From: an uncultured Alphaproteobacteria bacterium
Lineage (GTDB): Bacteria > Pseudomonadota > Alphaproteobacteria > Methylaequorales > Methylaequoraceae
Length of the DNA: 52,618 bases
Reading direction: 5' to 3'
Assembly: GCA_902590895.1 (NCBI GenBank)
Contig: CACIYM010000005.1
Coordinates: forward strand, 1-52,618
Under the pieces are notes generated by a model, which saw nothing but the letters and a program-made list of their open reading frames with translations, did not search any database and was not told the origin of the DNA. The position numbers and the translations under genes are program-made. Shown piece by piece: positions 18,050 to 29,772 of this stretch; within the stretch, counting starts at the first letter, position 1; each line of letters starts with the position of its first letter.

Positions 18050-18137
18050 GCGGCCGTGGCGGAACTGGTAGACGCGCAACGTTGAGGTCGTTGTAGGAGT
18101 TATTCCTGTGGAAGTTCGAGTCTTCTCGGCCGCACCA
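18050..18137 (+). tRNA. tRNA-Leu (GAG), CCA encoded
   Basis: GCGGCCG/CGGCCGC acceptor stem, anticodon stem CAACG-TTGAGGT-CGTTG, long variable arm, terminal ACCA. Confidence 0.96.
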
Positions 18138-18184: not shown

Positions 18185-19423
18185 GTGAAATACATTTATA
18201 AACATGGGAATCAATTTTGGTATCAGAGAGCAGTTCCGTTAAAAATACAAAAAATAATTGGAAAGACTAATATTAAGGTTTGTTTGAAAACCAATAAAAT
18301 TTCCACTGCTGTTCAAAGATCGAAGTTGCAAGCCCTTGAACACAAAAAGTTGTTTCAATATGTAATTAAACAAAACTATTTGTCCAAGGTCTTCTATAAA
18401 AAAGCTATTAATATAAAAAAATATCAATTAACATTTTTTGACGACTATGAGGATTATGTAACAAATATTTTTTTTTCAAAAACGAAGATTTATGAGAATA
18501 TAAAAAATAGGATCAACTTAAACATTAATTCAAGTCAAAAAAAGAAAAATAATAAAACAATTGAGAGTTTTCTTTTCAATATTCAAAGTAAATATTCATT
18601 ATTTTCAGTTATTTTAAAAAACATTTCTCAAGATAAAAAAAAACTTGGTTCGTTAGTTGAGAAAAAAAATTTAAAATTGTTCGTTGATATTTGTGGTGAT
18701 AAACCTGTATACGAATACAACTCAGACGATTACGATAAGTTTCAACTTTTTTTATTCAAAAATAACCTTAATGCTAAACTTATTTTGAAAGCTGTAGTTG
18801 ATGTTATTATCATAGGTTATGCAAACCTAAATATTAAAGAAAAAATAAATTTTAAAAAAAAAATAAAAATTCGAAACACTGGTTCTACTATAGAATTTAA
18901 TGATGATGAGTTATCTTTAATAGAGAGTAAATGTAAAGAATCTTTAGATCTTGAGTCCTTAGTAATTTTATTATTGATGGATACTGGTTGCACTATTAAA
19001 GAAGTTGTTGGGATTACTGCTGATGACATTTATTTAGATAGCTATTTACCTTTTGTAATCATTAGGTCAAATAGATTTAGAAAAATCCATAACGTAAATA
19101 AATTAAGAACGGTCCCTTTAGTAGGGTTGGCTTTATGGGCCTTGGAAAAAATAAAAAGTAATGCAAAATATAATGATTTTTTTACATCTAAAAAAAAGAA
19201 AACTCTTTTAATTAACAAATTAAATTTTAAATTTAAAAAGATTATTTCCAATAAAAATCTGACATCTTTTAGAAAATCATTTATAAAAAGATTAATCAGT
19301 ATAAATTGTCCTGAAAGAGTTATATTAGATATAATCGGACAATCAAAGAAAAATAGATTCTACAGTGATGAAATTAGTCTCGAAATCAAAGCGAGTTGGT
19401 TAAAACAGATTACTAAATATTGA
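18185..19423 (+). CDS. Tyrosine recombinase/integrase-like protein, active site apparently degenerate
   Basis: N-terminal KYIYKHGNQFWYQRAVPLKIQKIIGKTNIKVCLKT (DUF6538-like); C-terminal LLLMDTGCTIKEVVGI and SFRKSFIKRLI...IIGQSKKNRFY match recombinase boxes; sits after tRNA-Leu. Confidence 0.75.
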   Translation: MKYIYKHGNQFWYQRAVPLKIQKIIGKTNIKVCLKTNKISTAVQRSKLQALEHKKLFQYVIKQNYLSKVFYKKAINIKKYQLTFFDDYEDYVTNIFFSKTKIYENIKNRINLNINSSQKKKNNKTIESFLFNIQSKYSLFSVILKNISQDKKKLGSLVEKKNLKLFVDICGDKPVYEYNSDDYDKFQLFLFKNNLNAKLILKAVVDVIIIGYANLNIKEKINFKKKIKIRNTGSTIEFNDDELSLIESKCKESLDLESLVILLLMDTGCTIKEVVGITADDIYLDSYLPFVIIRSNRFRKIHNVNKLRTVPLVGLALWALEKIKSNAKYNDFFTSKKKKTLLINKLNFKFKKIISNKNLTSFRKSFIKRLISINCPERVILDIIGQSKKNRFYSDEISLEIKASWLKQITKY

Positions 19424-24234: not shown

Positions 24235-24312
24235 GGTGGCTGTAGCTCAGTTGGTTAGAGCGTCGGTTTGTGGTACCGAAGGCCGGGGGTTCAAATCCCC
24301 TCAGCCACCCCA
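24235..24312 (+). tRNA. tRNA-His (GTG), G-1 and CCA encoded
   Basis: GTGGCTG/CAGCCAC acceptor, anticodon loop TTGTGGT, T arm GGTTCAAATCC, 3' CCCA. Confidence 0.97.
24263..24312 (+). repeat. tRNA-His 3'-end direct repeat, copy 1 (within intact tRNA; att-like)
   Basis: tcggtttgtggtaccgaaggccgggggttcaaatcccctcagccacccca. Confidence 0.97.
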
Positions 24313-24672
24313 TTTTATTTCTTGTAATCTTACAACTTTTTGTTTTCGTCTTCTTACAGTTCTTTTTTCTTTATTTCTAATAAAACCTATTTCCTGATTG
24401 ATTATATCAAGAGCTAAGTTGTCATATCCATAAGAATAACCATAAAGCAGATTAATAATCATATTAGAAACTGAATTAAATTCTTCTTCATTTAATTTTT
24501 TGGCTAGTATTTTAATACAATATTCAAAGTCTTGATCTATACGACCATCTAAAATCTTATATTTCTTATTAATTAAAATTTTAGGTTTTTTTGATGGCGG
24601 TTTTTTGAATTTATTAAAAAGTAAGCCAAGAATAGAGAATATTTTATTTTTAATTTTTGATACAAAAAACAT
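24301..24672 (-). CDS. Hypothetical protein, C-terminus encoded antisense to the tRNA-His 3' end
   Basis: 123 aa ORF; resembles the 25417-25671 product (KILAKKL..EEFNSV...GYSYGYD). Confidence 0.65.
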   Translation of the reverse strand: MFFVSKIKNKIFSILGLLFNKFKKPPSKKPKILINKKYKILDGRIDQDFEYCIKILAKKLNEEEFNSVSNMIINLLYGYSYGYDNLALDIINQEIGFIRNKEKRTVRRRKQKVVRLQEIKWGG

Positions 24673-24679
24673 AAAAATA

Positions 24680-25327
24680 TTAATTATCTAAGCTGGAATA
24701 AACTTGATTTAAGTTTTCCCAGTCTAAAAAATTATTTGAGCCACCATATAAGATAGAGTCAAGACTATCTGATCTATCATTGTGTATTTTAAATATTTTC
24801 CTAACACCATCAATTAAGAATCTAGTTATTTTTTTATTTTCTTTTTCTAAAACAACATTATTTTCAACTTGATGATTAATAAGATATAATATTACTCCGA
24901 TATATTTGAATGCATTATATAAATTAATCTCAAAGAAAAATTTCTTAAGATCAGTTTTCAAAACCTGATTTTGTAACAAAATAGCTTCATTTTTCGAAAT
25001 TAATTTATCTCGACCAAGATAACAGATTTTATCATCCGTTATAAATTGACTGTTGAAATGTAATTTTTCTTCTATAAGTTTCTTATAAATCAATACAAAA
25101 AACGCATTTGTAAGACCCTCACAGCAACAAGTTCCATGACATAAATGATTGCGCCAGTTATTAATATCTGCAATTTTGCAAACTTCAAAAAATGACAAGT
25201 TTTTTATCATGTAAGGTGTGGCAATATAATACATTATATTATTAAGATTAGAATTTTGAGTAATTTCAAAACCTTGAGATTGTAATAATAATTTTTTTAC
25301 TTCTTGTAATTTGTTAGATTCGACCAT
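24680..25327 (-). CDS. Hypothetical protein with CHGTCCC cysteine cluster
   Basis: 215 aa ORF; no family recognised. Confidence 0.6.
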   Translation of the reverse strand: MVESNKLQEVKKLLLQSQGFEITQNSNLNNIMYYIATPYMIKNLSFFEVCKIADINNWRNHLCHGTCCCEGLTNAFFVLIYKKLIEEKLHFNSQFITDDKICYLGRDKLISKNEAILLQNQVLKTDLKKFFFEINLYNAFKYIGVILYLINHQVENNVVLEKENKKITRFLIDGVRKIFKIHNDRSDSLDSILYGGSNNFLDWENLNQVYSSLDN

Positions 25328-25416
25328 TAAAATAATAACTCCAAAGCTTTAACTATACCTAGTAAAATTAAAACGTTTTTTAAAACCCAACACATTACTT
25401 AAAATCAAACAAATTA

Positions 25417-25671
25417 TTACTTTTTAATCAGACTAAATATCTTTTTATTATTCTTAATTAGATTTTGTCGTTCTTCTTTAGATTCATCTTTTGCTACTGT
25501 GTAGGCCTTACGAGCATCTGCTAATATTCCATTAATATCACCCTCATCGTAACCAACATCACATCCCATATAGAGTTTATAAATAAAATCTTCAACTTCC
25601 TTAAACTCTTTATGAGATAAGTGCTTTGCAATGATCTTAAGTTTTCCAAATGCATAATCATTTATAGCCAT
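25417..25671 (-). CDS. Hypothetical small protein, paralogous in part to the 24301-24672 product
   Basis: LKIIAKHLSHKEFKEVEDFIYKLYMGCDVGYD. Confidence 0.6.
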   Translation of the reverse strand: MAINDYAFGKLKIIAKHLSHKEFKEVEDFIYKLYMGCDVGYDEGDINGILADARKAYTVAKDESKEERQNLIKNNKKIFSLIKK

Positions 25672-25692
25672 AGTTATCCTTTTAAAAATTAA

Positions 25693-25764
25693 TAGGAAAG
25701 GGATATGTACCGAGAAAGGTCGCCTTACTGTGTTAACGTTGAAACTAATACAATCCCTTACCTA
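25693..25764. other. Interrupted inverted repeat between divergent islet genes (possible structured RNA or operator)
   Basis: taggaaaggga (25693-25703) / tcccttaccta (25754-25764), 10 of 11 positions complementary. Confidence 0.4.
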
Positions 25765-25829
25765 TAAACATCATAATAAAAAAAAAAATTGTGTCAACCA
25801 AAAATATAACATAAATAAATAATTGTATG

Positions 25830-25857
25830 TTGACATATAAATATGACAATATATGAT
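25830..25857 (+). promoter_or_regulatory. Sigma70-like promoter TTGACA-16 bp-TATGAT
   Basis: TTGACA 25830-25835; TATGAT 25852-25857. Confidence 0.5.
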
Positions 25858-26304
25858 ATATATATGAATGAAAAAAAATATGATTTTAAAATTGGAAAAA
25901 ACTTATTTGAAATTAAAAGCTTTAATCTTGAAACTGAAAAAGAAATTTTAATTTCACTTAAGAAAATAGAAAAGAATAATAGGACTAAGGAAGAAACTAA
26001 AAAAATTAAAGCAAGTAATTTTAAAGTTATTATTCATAGACGTATGCAAAAGTTGATTGACCTATTAAATGGTCTTTCAAAACTTTCTAACAAATCTCAT
26101 TACAAAGTTGATCATGAGATACTTTTGGAGTGTGAAAATAAGTTAAACGAAGAAATCAGAAAAGTTTTTTCTAAATTTAGATCTTATCAAAAAGAAAAAA
26201 AAATTAGATCTGAATCACAAACAAAAGCTTTGAGAAAGCAATTTGAAGAATTACGCTTATTGATCGATGAGCAAGAAAGCAAAATTAACAATGAAAAAAA
26301 TTGA
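25843..26304 (+). CDS. Hypothetical helical protein (start may be 25864)
   Basis: 153 aa K/E-rich ORF directly upstream of and overlapping the HNH-HIT ORF. Confidence 0.6.
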   Translation: MTIYDIYMNEKKYDFKIGKNLFEIKSFNLETEKEILISLKKIEKNNRTKEETKKIKASNFKVIIHRRMQKLIDLLNGLSKLSNKSHYKVDHEILLECENKLNEEIRKVFSKFRSYQKEKKIRSESQTKALRKQFEELRLLIDEQESKINNEKN

Positions 26305-27352
26305 AAAGATGAAGAATCTTATAAGAAAAATTTTAAGAATAAAAAAAAATAAAAAAAGTATAAGTCCTAATATTTTTCTTAAACTACATAATTATATTTT
26401 ATCTAAGATGCAAATGTCACATATTTATCAACCTTTAATGTTAATTGAGTTGATAAAAGGAGATGGAAAAGCGAATAGAAGAGATATAGCGAAATCTATT
26501 TTAAGCTTTGACGAAGCACAAATTGATTATTACAAAAAAATTATTCAGTCAATGCCATTCAAATATTTGTCTAAACATCTAGATGAAATAAAAAAAAAAA
26601 AGGACGAGTATTACATTAAAGATTTTAATTTAAATGGAAATCAAAAAGAAGAATTGATTAGACTATGTAAAAAAAAATTAAATGAATTCATAAAAGAAAG
26701 AGGTATTAAAAATATTTTTCATCATAGAATATTAGCAACTGGTATTGTTTCCGGCAGTATGAGATATAAGGTTTTATTAAGAGCAAAAAATAGATGTGAG
26801 AGTTGTGGGATATCTAATGAAAAAAAACAATTAGAAGTAGATCATATCATTCCTAAAAGTAAAGGTGGAAAAGATGAGTTTAGTAACTTCCAGGCGTTGT
26901 GCTATACTTGTAACTCTCAAAAAAGTAATAAAGATAATACAAATTTTAAAAAAGTGCTAGAAAGTTATGAACTCAGAAAAAAAGGTTGTATTTTTTGTGA
27001 TTTATCAAAAGATAGAATAATAAATTCAAACGAGCTTGCTGTAGTTATTGAAGATAACTATCCTGTTACCAAATATCATTGTTTAATTATTCCTAAAAGA
27101 CATTGTGAGGATTACTTCGATTTATATCAACCAGAAATAAATGCTGTTTCACAATTGATTAATGAAACAAAAAAAGTCTTAATGAAAAAGGATAAATCAA
27201 TAAAAGGATTTAACATCGGAAGTAATTGTGGTGAGGTTGCAGGTCAGACTATTAATCATTGTCATATACATTTAATTCCAAGAAGAAAAGGTGACTCAAA
27301 AGCCCCGGAAGGTGGTGTGAGAGGAGTGATTCCAGATAAACAAAAATATTAA
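26267..27352 (+). CDS. HNH endonuclease-HIT domain fusion protein
   Basis: HNH: CESCGISNEKKQLEVDHIIPKSKGGKDEFSNFQALCYTCNSQK; HIT: CIFCDLS...HCLIIPKRH...INHCHIHLIPRR. Confidence 0.88.
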   Translation: MSKKAKLTMKKIEKMKNLIRKILRIKKNKKSISPNIFLKLHNYILSKMQMSHIYQPLMLIELIKGDGKANRRDIAKSILSFDEAQIDYYKKIIQSMPFKYLSKHLDEIKKKKDEYYIKDFNLNGNQKEELIRLCKKKLNEFIKERGIKNIFHHRILATGIVSGSMRYKVLLRAKNRCESCGISNEKKQLEVDHIIPKSKGGKDEFSNFQALCYTCNSQKSNKDNTNFKKVLESYELRKKGCIFCDLSKDRIINSNELAVVIEDNYPVTKYHCLIIPKRHCEDYFDLYQPEINAVSQLINETKKVLMKKDKSIKGFNIGSNCGEVAGQTINHCHIHLIPRRKGDSKAPEGGVRGVIPDKQKY

Positions 27353-27363
27353 ATATTCTTGCA

Positions 27364-27413
27364 TCGGTTTGTGGTACCGAAGGCCGGGGGTTCAAATCCC
27401 CTCAGCCACCCCA
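27364..27413 (+). repeat. tRNA-His 3'-end direct repeat, copy 2
   Basis: 50 bp identical to 24263-24312. Confidence 0.97.
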
Positions 27414-27459
27414 TATAAAAAAGTTTAACTCAAAAAAATTTTATGATATTAATTACATT

Positions 27460-27924
27460 ATGTTAAATATTTTTTTAGCGATTGTATCATTAATTTTTTT
27501 TACGACAAGTTGCCAAACAATGAGAGGAGACAAACCTCTTGCAGAAAAAGTAATTAAGTCTGATCCAAGCACAAATTTAACTTTGGGTTTGGTTCAGATG
27601 ACCGTAAGAGAAGGTGCAAGTAAAAATGATATTATTTCATCACTGGGTTCACCTAATATGGTAACAAGTTCAGGTTCTAAAAATGAAACCTGGATTTATG
27701 ATAGAGTCTCTACTGACATTCAAAGAGAAAATGAGTCTGGTTCAGCAGGCTTGGAGGTTGGTTTTGGAGGTTCAGGTGATGTGGTGGGAGGTAATATAGG
27801 GGCTGGAGCCTCGTCTAAATCTTCTGGAGAAGTAGTTGTTCGAACACAAAGGACTTTAACAGTAATAATAAAATTTGTTGATGGAATAGTTTCCTCTTAT
27901 CAGACTAGAGCCACAAGTTTTTAA
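27460..27924 (+). CDS. Putative lipoprotein, SmpA/BamE-like fold possible
   Basis: FFTTSCQTM lipobox; VREGASKNDIISSLGSPNMV...ETWIYD resembles SmpA/OmlA pattern. Confidence 0.65.
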   Translation: MLNIFLAIVSLIFFTTSCQTMRGDKPLAEKVIKSDPSTNLTLGLVQMTVREGASKNDIISSLGSPNMVTSSGSKNETWIYDRVSTDIQRENESGSAGLEVGFGGSGDVVGGNIGAGASSKSSGEVVVRTQRTLTVIIKFVDGIVSSYQTRATSF

Positions 27925-28523
27925 TGTTTTTTTTTTTTCTTATTATATTTACTTTGTTTTTTATTGATTTGGGGAATACACAAGTTATAAACCAATCAAA
28001 TCAACAAAGTACAAAAGTTGAACAAAAGGTTCCAAAAAAAACTTCAGTAGAGATACAAGCAATTCAAACTCGTACATTTGAAACAACAGAGAAGAAATTA
28101 TTTAGAGCAACTCTTAAAGTACTTCAAAACAATAGTTACAAAGATATTATTTCCGATTTTAATGGAGGACTTATAACAGCAAAGTTACCATCTGTTGATG
28201 CTAGTGACTCAGCCGGAACACAAGTTGGCAAGGCTCTTGGTGGATTAATTGTTGGTGCAGTAATTCCTTTTGGAGGGTTATTAGTACCTGGCAAAAAAGT
28301 TGGTCAATTAGATAGAAGTGTGAATATTACTCTTGATCCAATCAAAGATAATTTAATTGAGATAAGAGTTGCATTCCAAATCACTGAAATGACAACCCAG
28401 AGCAATTCTTTTGTATCAACCAACGAAACAATTGAAGATGACCTTACAGATCAACCAGAAATTTACCAAGCATTTTTTGAACAAATTGATAAAGAACTTT
28501 TTGTAAGGGAGAATAAGTATTAG
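27924..28523 (+). CDS. Hypothetical exported/membrane-associated protein
   Basis: Hydrophobic N-terminus; GKALGGLIVGAVIPFGGLLVPGKK; start codon overlaps the preceding stop. Confidence 0.65.
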   Translation: MFFFFLIIFTLFFIDLGNTQVINQSNQQSTKVEQKVPKKTSVEIQAIQTRTFETTEKKLFRATLKVLQNNSYKDIISDFNGGLITAKLPSVDASDSAGTQVGKALGGLIVGAVIPFGGLLVPGKKVGQLDRSVNITLDPIKDNLIEIRVAFQITEMTTQSNSFVSTNETIEDDLTDQPEIYQAFFEQIDKELFVRENKY

Positions 28524-28545
28524 GTAAGATAATCTTATAAAGTAA

Positions 28546-28592
28546 GTTTGTGGTACCGAAGGCCGGGGGTTCAAATCCCCTCAGCCACCCCA
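28546..28592 (+). repeat. tRNA-His 3'-end direct repeat, copy 3
   Basis: 47 bp identical to the tRNA-His 3' end. Confidence 0.97.
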
Positions 28593-28596
28593 TAAT

Positions 28597-29574: not shown

Positions 29575-29772
29575 TTAGTATCCATATCCCATTAAGAATT
29601 TTAATCTTTCTGCCTCATCTGCAAGTTTGGTCAATGATCTGGCTGCATCTGAGTTACTCAATGAAATATTATCTTCTTTTGAAACATTTCCGAGGAATGT
29701 AATTAATTCTGGAAGCATTGTTATAGCTCTTTGGTTCTTATTTGCGTCTTTATATTTAGGATCAATTTTCAT
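29575..29772 (-). CDS. Hypothetical small protein
   Basis: 65 aa ORF, non-repetitive composition. Confidence 0.45.
   Translation of the reverse strand: MKIDPKYKDANKNQRAITMLPELITFLGNVSKEDNISLSNSDAARSLTKLADEAERLKFLMGYGY

Follow-up and report, generated by a model that had tools for sequence, protein, structure and literature searches.

The window analysed here is the whole 52,618-nucleotide stretch of contig CACIYM010000005.1 from an uncultured, streamlined alphaproteobacterium. It contains a tRNA-His gene followed by two short islets, the first of which carries a gene encoding an HNH nuclease domain and a HIT domain in one chain (HNH-HIT). The features of the locus are as follows (+ or − gives the strand).

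24236-24312, +: tRNA-His (gtg), the insertion site and left boundary of the islet (ARAGORN; Rfam RF00005)
24260-24313, +: direct repeat copy 1, the 3' part of tRNA-His (repeat search)
24314-27360: islet 1, 3.05 kb, carrying HNH-HIT; 25 % G+C versus 30 % in the window; no integrase inside
24301-24672, −: 123-aa ORF without family, its 3' end overlapping tRNA-His
24680-25327, −: 215-aa ORF without Pfam family
25417-25671, −: 84-aa ORF
25672-25842: divergent intergenic region with two inverted-repeat stems (folding versus shuffles)
25843-26304, +: 153-aa ORF without family, directly 5' of HNH-HIT
26267-27352, +: HNH-HIT fusion protein, 361 aa (open frame; conserved part from about 26375)
26375-26761, +: conserved N-terminal module, residues 37-165, without Pfam or PDB relative
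26795-26932, +: HNH nuclease domain, residues 177-222 (Pfam)
27008-27289, +: HIT domain, residues 248-341, followed by the conserved GGVRGVIPDKQKY tail (Pfam and alignment)
27361-27414, +: direct repeat copy 2, the tRNA-His 3' end and right boundary of islet 1 (54 nt, 98 %, one mismatch)
27415-28545, +: islet 2, with a lipoprotein-like ORF (154 aa) and a 199-aa ORF
28546-28593, +: direct repeat copy 3, the tRNA-His 3' end and right boundary of islet 2 (48 nt, 100 %)

Since the 3' end of tRNA-His is repeated twice downstream of the gene, islets 1 and 2 constitute two tandem cassettes. The repeats at 27361-27414 and 28546-28593 are the sole copies of the tRNA-His 3' end in the genome, whose assembly is 71 % complete and comprises 43 contigs. 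The first-pass annotation had placed the fusion gene on a tRNA islet, which was correct and can now be put more sharply, as the islet is bounded by tRNA-His and its 3'-end repeats.

Besides HNH-HIT, islet 1 encodes four ORFs that could not be assigned to a family. The 84-aa and 123-aa ORFs are partial paralogues with 44 % identity along a stretch of 32 aa (E 1.5e-5), the 215-aa ORF had no relative among the compared loci, and the companion genes of islet 1 were not conserved with HNH-HIT at the other loci compared. The intergenic region at 25672-25842 folded better than 200 of 200 shuffled sequences (z −3.1) and gave no match in Rfam; it is possibly an operator, an RNA element or a small RNA.

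No PF00589 match was found inside either tRNA-His cassette. The nearest recombinase-like gene lies at 18185-19423 (+), adjoining tRNA-Leu: this 412-aa ORF starts about 48 bases past the tRNA gene (18050-18137) and gives DUF6538 and a weak phage-integrase match. It may belong to a second, integrase-bearing element, or the remnant of one, in the window.

The tRNA-His site in the family

At the threshold applied, a tRNA-His query gave matches in 31 of the 32 family genomes, other tRNA genes accounting for some of them. Partial copies of tRNA-His were found downstream of the gene in about a dozen family genomes, with segments of varied content. The gene pair of islet 2 recurs at the tRNA-His of a sister genome, G026 (81 % and 64 %). 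Two cassettes at tRNA-His (L063 in G009 and L064 in G006) carry a C5-cytosine methylase pair alongside a third gene that Pfam does not match and that perhaps encodes an unassigned restriction enzyme, and two others (L060 and L065) carry T5orf172 GIY-YIG nucleases. Further bounded segments at tRNA-His hold apparently core genes or uncharacterised genes, hence the site is not used solely for defence. In the congener G002 no tRNA-fragment repeat was present within the 8 kb read behind tRNA-His; the cassettes therefore differ among members of the genus. Downstream of the cassettes in the window, a 65-aa ORF (29575-29772) has counterparts (88 %) in G020 and G029, within stretches bounded by tRNA fragments and bearing T5orf172 genes as well.

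Recurring 3'-tRNA repeats and cassettes of variable content at one tRNA gene are the features of an additive tRNA-repeat genomic island, and the tRNA-His site shows both. Additive flexible genomic islands of this kind have been described at tRNA-Lys repeats of Methylophilaceae (PMC10872708). The two share recurring 3'-tRNA repeats as bounds and mostly uncharacterised genes, and differ in the tRNA gene used, tRNA-His in the window and tRNA-Lys in Methylophilaceae. Tycheposons, likewise anchored at tRNA genes, carry their own tyrosine recombinase, in contrast to the cassettes of the window, and membership in that group was rejected as neither cassette gave a PF00589 match.

Domains and conserved residues of HNH-HIT

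The domain search proposed by the first-pass annotation recovered both enzymatic domains in one open frame, far above the curated cut-offs of Pfam. The HNH profile (PF01844) matched residues 177-222 with E 2.5e-15 and 56.8 bits against a cut-off of 21.4, and the HIT profile (PF01230) matched residues 248-341 with E 2.9e-18 and 66.8 bits against 21.5. The motifs read from the sequence earlier were all present, i.e. CESCG, VDHIIPKSKGG and CYTCN for HNH, and CIFC and HxHxH (HCHIHLIPRR) for a complete HIT domain. By its profile score, zinc cysteines and catalytic residues the protein belongs to the HNH family, and by its profile score and HxHxH motif to the HIT superfamily. Across ten aligned full-length proteins, HNH kept both CxxC pairs, the DH, the N and the CN-K without exception, and HIT its three HxHxH histidines. 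This invariance and the recurrence of the fusion at more than 20 further loci rule out a chance composite.

The N-terminal region fared less well. It had been described as about 150 aa long and resembling DNA-associated modules. The length holds in part: a module of about 130 residues is conserved, whereas residues 1-35, which overlap the upstream ORF 25843-26304, are not. Since the shared part begins near residue 36, residues 1-35 may represent an over-extended start. The likeness to DNA-associated modules was not borne out, as the module had no match in Pfam and a PDB profile search gave nothing above chance; the pattern of helices suggests a winged helix, a name that was withheld. A relative from Maribacter spongiicola aligned pairwise at 51 % identity across the N-terminal module, HNH, HIT and the tail of the GGVRxVIPxKxxY type.

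No NCBIfam family matched the whole protein above cut-off, PADLOC matched single domains only, and none of the models searched in Pfam, NCBIfam, PHROGs and PADLOC covered the three-part architecture. The literature searched contained no description of an HNH-HIT fusion, and ThsC was the only HIT defence protein found there. Each domain is common alone; the fused three-part form is probably so far unnamed.

The individual domains do resemble known proteins. The HIT domain is 42-56 % identical to standalone HIT hydrolases of the 'diadenosine polyphosphate hydrolase' branch ending in GGVRxVIPxKxxY (PHROG 19494). These occur on plasmids, on phages and in sister genomes and mostly have the same C-terminal tail; in HNH-HIT the domain is joined to an N-terminal module and an HNH nuclease. 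The HIT protein ThsC has a defence setting in Thoeris type II (PMC8565338), and the PADLOC ThsC2 model matches HNH-HIT residues 238-336 with E 7.9e-11; a nuclease fusion like that of HNH-HIT is not described for ThsC. Membership in Thoeris was rejected, as Pfam and PADLOC revealed neither ThsA nor ThsB in the islet. The HNH domain is of the zinc type seen in type IV/McrA-like enzymes and in PtuB of Septu. The corresponding PADLOC matches (mREase_IV, 1.6e-5; PtuB, 6.9e-7) span this domain only, to which HNH-HIT adds a C-terminal HIT. Neither a modification-reading domain nor a PtuA partner was found for HNH-HIT, and the ORF list and Pfam gave no ATPase gene in the islet, so Septu membership was rejected as well.

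Distribution and neighbourhoods of the relatives

Full-length relatives, 42-52 % identical, were found in Alphaproteobacteria, other Pseudomonadota, Bacteroidota and prophages; the fusion is thus kept across phyla. It is nevertheless rare. Outside the window, and leaving the variants aside, it was present at ten loci in nine of approximately 1,170 genomes sampled. A model of the N-terminal module matched 1 of 32 genomes in the window's own family, 5 of 385 in the class, 5 of 398 in the phylum and 6 of 395 in the phylum of Maribacter, the query genomes being counted in. Such a rare, patchy distribution is as expected for transferred cargo. Another 15 full-length copies were recovered from viral and prophage contigs of IMG/VR by profile queries, after a first protein scan of the viral contigs had given none; these contigs are mobile by selection.

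Several copies depart from the full architecture. The second copy of G814 (L109), counted among the ten loci, has a TGA in its N-terminal part. L099 and L100 keep the N-terminal module and HIT and have lost HNH, whereas L103 (8375-9283) and L104 (7835-8737) keep the module and HNH and have a different C-terminus in place of HIT. An apparent likeness of this C-terminus to all-alpha NTP pyrophosphohydrolases found no support in phmmer against PDB or in Pfam and was set aside. SIR2 genes lie near the L103 gene, and a DpdF-like helicase gene and an HNH_2 gene near that of L104. In a tree of HIT domains, whose resolution was weak, three standalone proteins were placed among the fused ones and a single origin of the fused HIT was not rejected (p-AU 0.22).

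The HNH-only and HIT-only variants argue against a strict dependence of either domain on the other, and they could be taken to mean that the fusion is fortuitous or decaying, with uncoupled functions. The catalytic residues of both domains, however, are intact and invariant in proteins that are 42-52 % identical and come from more than one phylum, and this conservation makes a decaying fusion very improbable.

The neighbourhoods of the relatives were read from mechanical ORF calls and selected family searches. Known defence genes, among them restriction genes of types I, II and IV, were found near HNH-HIT at several loci. L110 holds a phosphorothioate (Pbe/Dnd) system, with PbeA (7e-195), Orf5 (5e-212), PbeC and DndA; PbeA is divergent and its called start lies two bases from the start of HNH-HIT. 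PD-Lambda-4 A (5e-265) was present at L124, HsdM at L098, C5-methylases and Vsr at L122, a C5-methylase and T5orf172 at L097, a tyrosine integrase and an HNH_2 enzyme at L106, and a type IV-like SRA/HNH enzyme in the prophage L084. A 240-aa protein was observed close to HNH-HIT at two separate loci (L098:1960-2682 and L121:8889-9620, 49 % identical). At four of the ten genome loci (L023, L101, L102 and L107) no neighbour was clearly of a defence or mobile type; L107 sits among def/fmt-like housekeeping genes.

To set these neighbourhoods against a background, a control of 124 proteins was taken from twelve 12-kb stretches elsewhere on contigs of six of the genomes, with PADLOC at E 1e-12. Among the 90 proteins neighbouring HNH-HIT at nine genome loci, 109 PADLOC models were matched, versus 7 among the controls; counted as PADLOC-positive proteins, the figures were at least 6 of 90 versus at most 10 of 124, which in so small a sample is not decisive. 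The control matches were mostly to general proteins, e.g. RtcR/PspF-like regulators, and the contrast between neighbours and controls is one of the kind of match, not of number. The neighbourhood survey suggested by the first-pass annotation thus yielded known defence genes near several relatives and little difference in the count of PADLOC-positive proteins. Homologues residing mainly in housekeeping settings would have spoken against a defence role; instead, they were often found in prophages, beside recombinases or beside defence genes.

Some of these neighbours allow other readings. L108, L109, L120 and L123 are prophage loci where HNH-HIT has phage genes, in some cases that of the terminase large subunit, and a prophage ParB/DNA-methylase gene as neighbours; a terminase gene is nearby in L108 and L120. 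HNH proteins adjoining terminase can act in packaging, as does gp74 of HK97. HNH-HIT could accordingly be an accessory nuclease of phage DNA packaging or recombination in which HNH assists terminase while HIT is merely carried along, and the copy in the window would then be a stray phage gene within a cassette. The four loci, however, represent one element type, and most copies lie elsewhere in prophages, beside recombinases or beside non-phage defence genes; moreover, no phage structural gene could be recognised in islet 1 and the HIT active site is intact. A packaging role is therefore rather unlikely.

A selfish nuclease of the homing or mobility type, spreading itself and protected or regulated by HIT, would fit the patchy distribution and the presence of GIY-YIG genes beside HNH-HIT in several lineages. 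In L097 and L116 the next gene, within approximately 10 bases, is of this type (Pfam), and in L118 the gene directly after HNH-HIT has a GIY-YIG-like motif and no Pfam match. In one group (L112 and L114-L118) a serine recombinase lies just upstream, as assigned by Pfam on the L115 copy. On the other hand, neither an intron or intein nor a conserved site of insertion was seen around the gene, and cassettes of very different content occupy the tRNA-His site, which means that the HNH-HIT nuclease does not determine where insertion takes place. Self-spreading of this type is considered quite unlikely.

The chemistry of the HIT superfamily, known from FHIT, HINT and aprataxin, points to yet another role, that of a general repair or nucleotide-stress enzyme whose aprataxin-like or Ap4A hydrolase-like HIT repairs adenylated ends or clears dinucleotides while HNH trims DNA. 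Some copies do lie amid housekeeping genes (L107 and L099/L100). The rarity, patchiness and mobile context of the gene argue against a general function, as does the occurrence of close standalone HIT relatives on plasmids and phages, and a repair role thus appears unlikely.

Proposed role of HNH-HIT

Judged by its genomic context, HNH-HIT seems on balance to be a horizontally moved defence-type nuclease, the cargo of a small tRNA-His cassette, a reading towards which we lean with guarded confidence. The earlier proposal of a defence or anti-mobile-element effector gains from the prophage, recombinase, GIY-YIG and defence-gene context of the relatives and from the methyltransferase and GIY-YIG cassettes at tRNA-His within the family. 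It is weakened by the HIT-only and HNH-only variants, by the four of ten loci lacking such a neighbour and by the one element type found beside terminase.

Bacterial immune systems are known to employ nucleases as well as nucleotide-processing enzymes, for the most part as distinct proteins. In a defence nuclease built like HNH-HIT, the N-terminal module would bind or read DNA, the zinc-type HNH domain would cut or nick the target DNA, and HIT would hydrolyse a nucleotidyl-phosphate bond appearing during attack or infection. The HIT substrate might be an adenylated DNA end, a signalling nucleotide or a nucleotide bearing a modification, and the outcome would be protection against phage or other elements.

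A more specific variant, a 'nick and block repair' mechanism, is decidedly speculative and improbable as it stands. HNH would nick the invading DNA and HIT, acting like aprataxin, would strip the 5' AMP made by ligase so that the nick could not be sealed; alternatively, HIT might act on an adenylated intermediate of DNA modification, as might be hinted at by its place beside Pbe/Dnd in L110.

As one chain conserved across phyla, HNH-HIT would offer a compact test of whether nucleotide hydrolysis and DNA cleavage are coupled in defence. Its position at tRNA-His suggests further that very small, integrase-less tRNA cassettes of streamlined bacteria can carry defence-type cargo.
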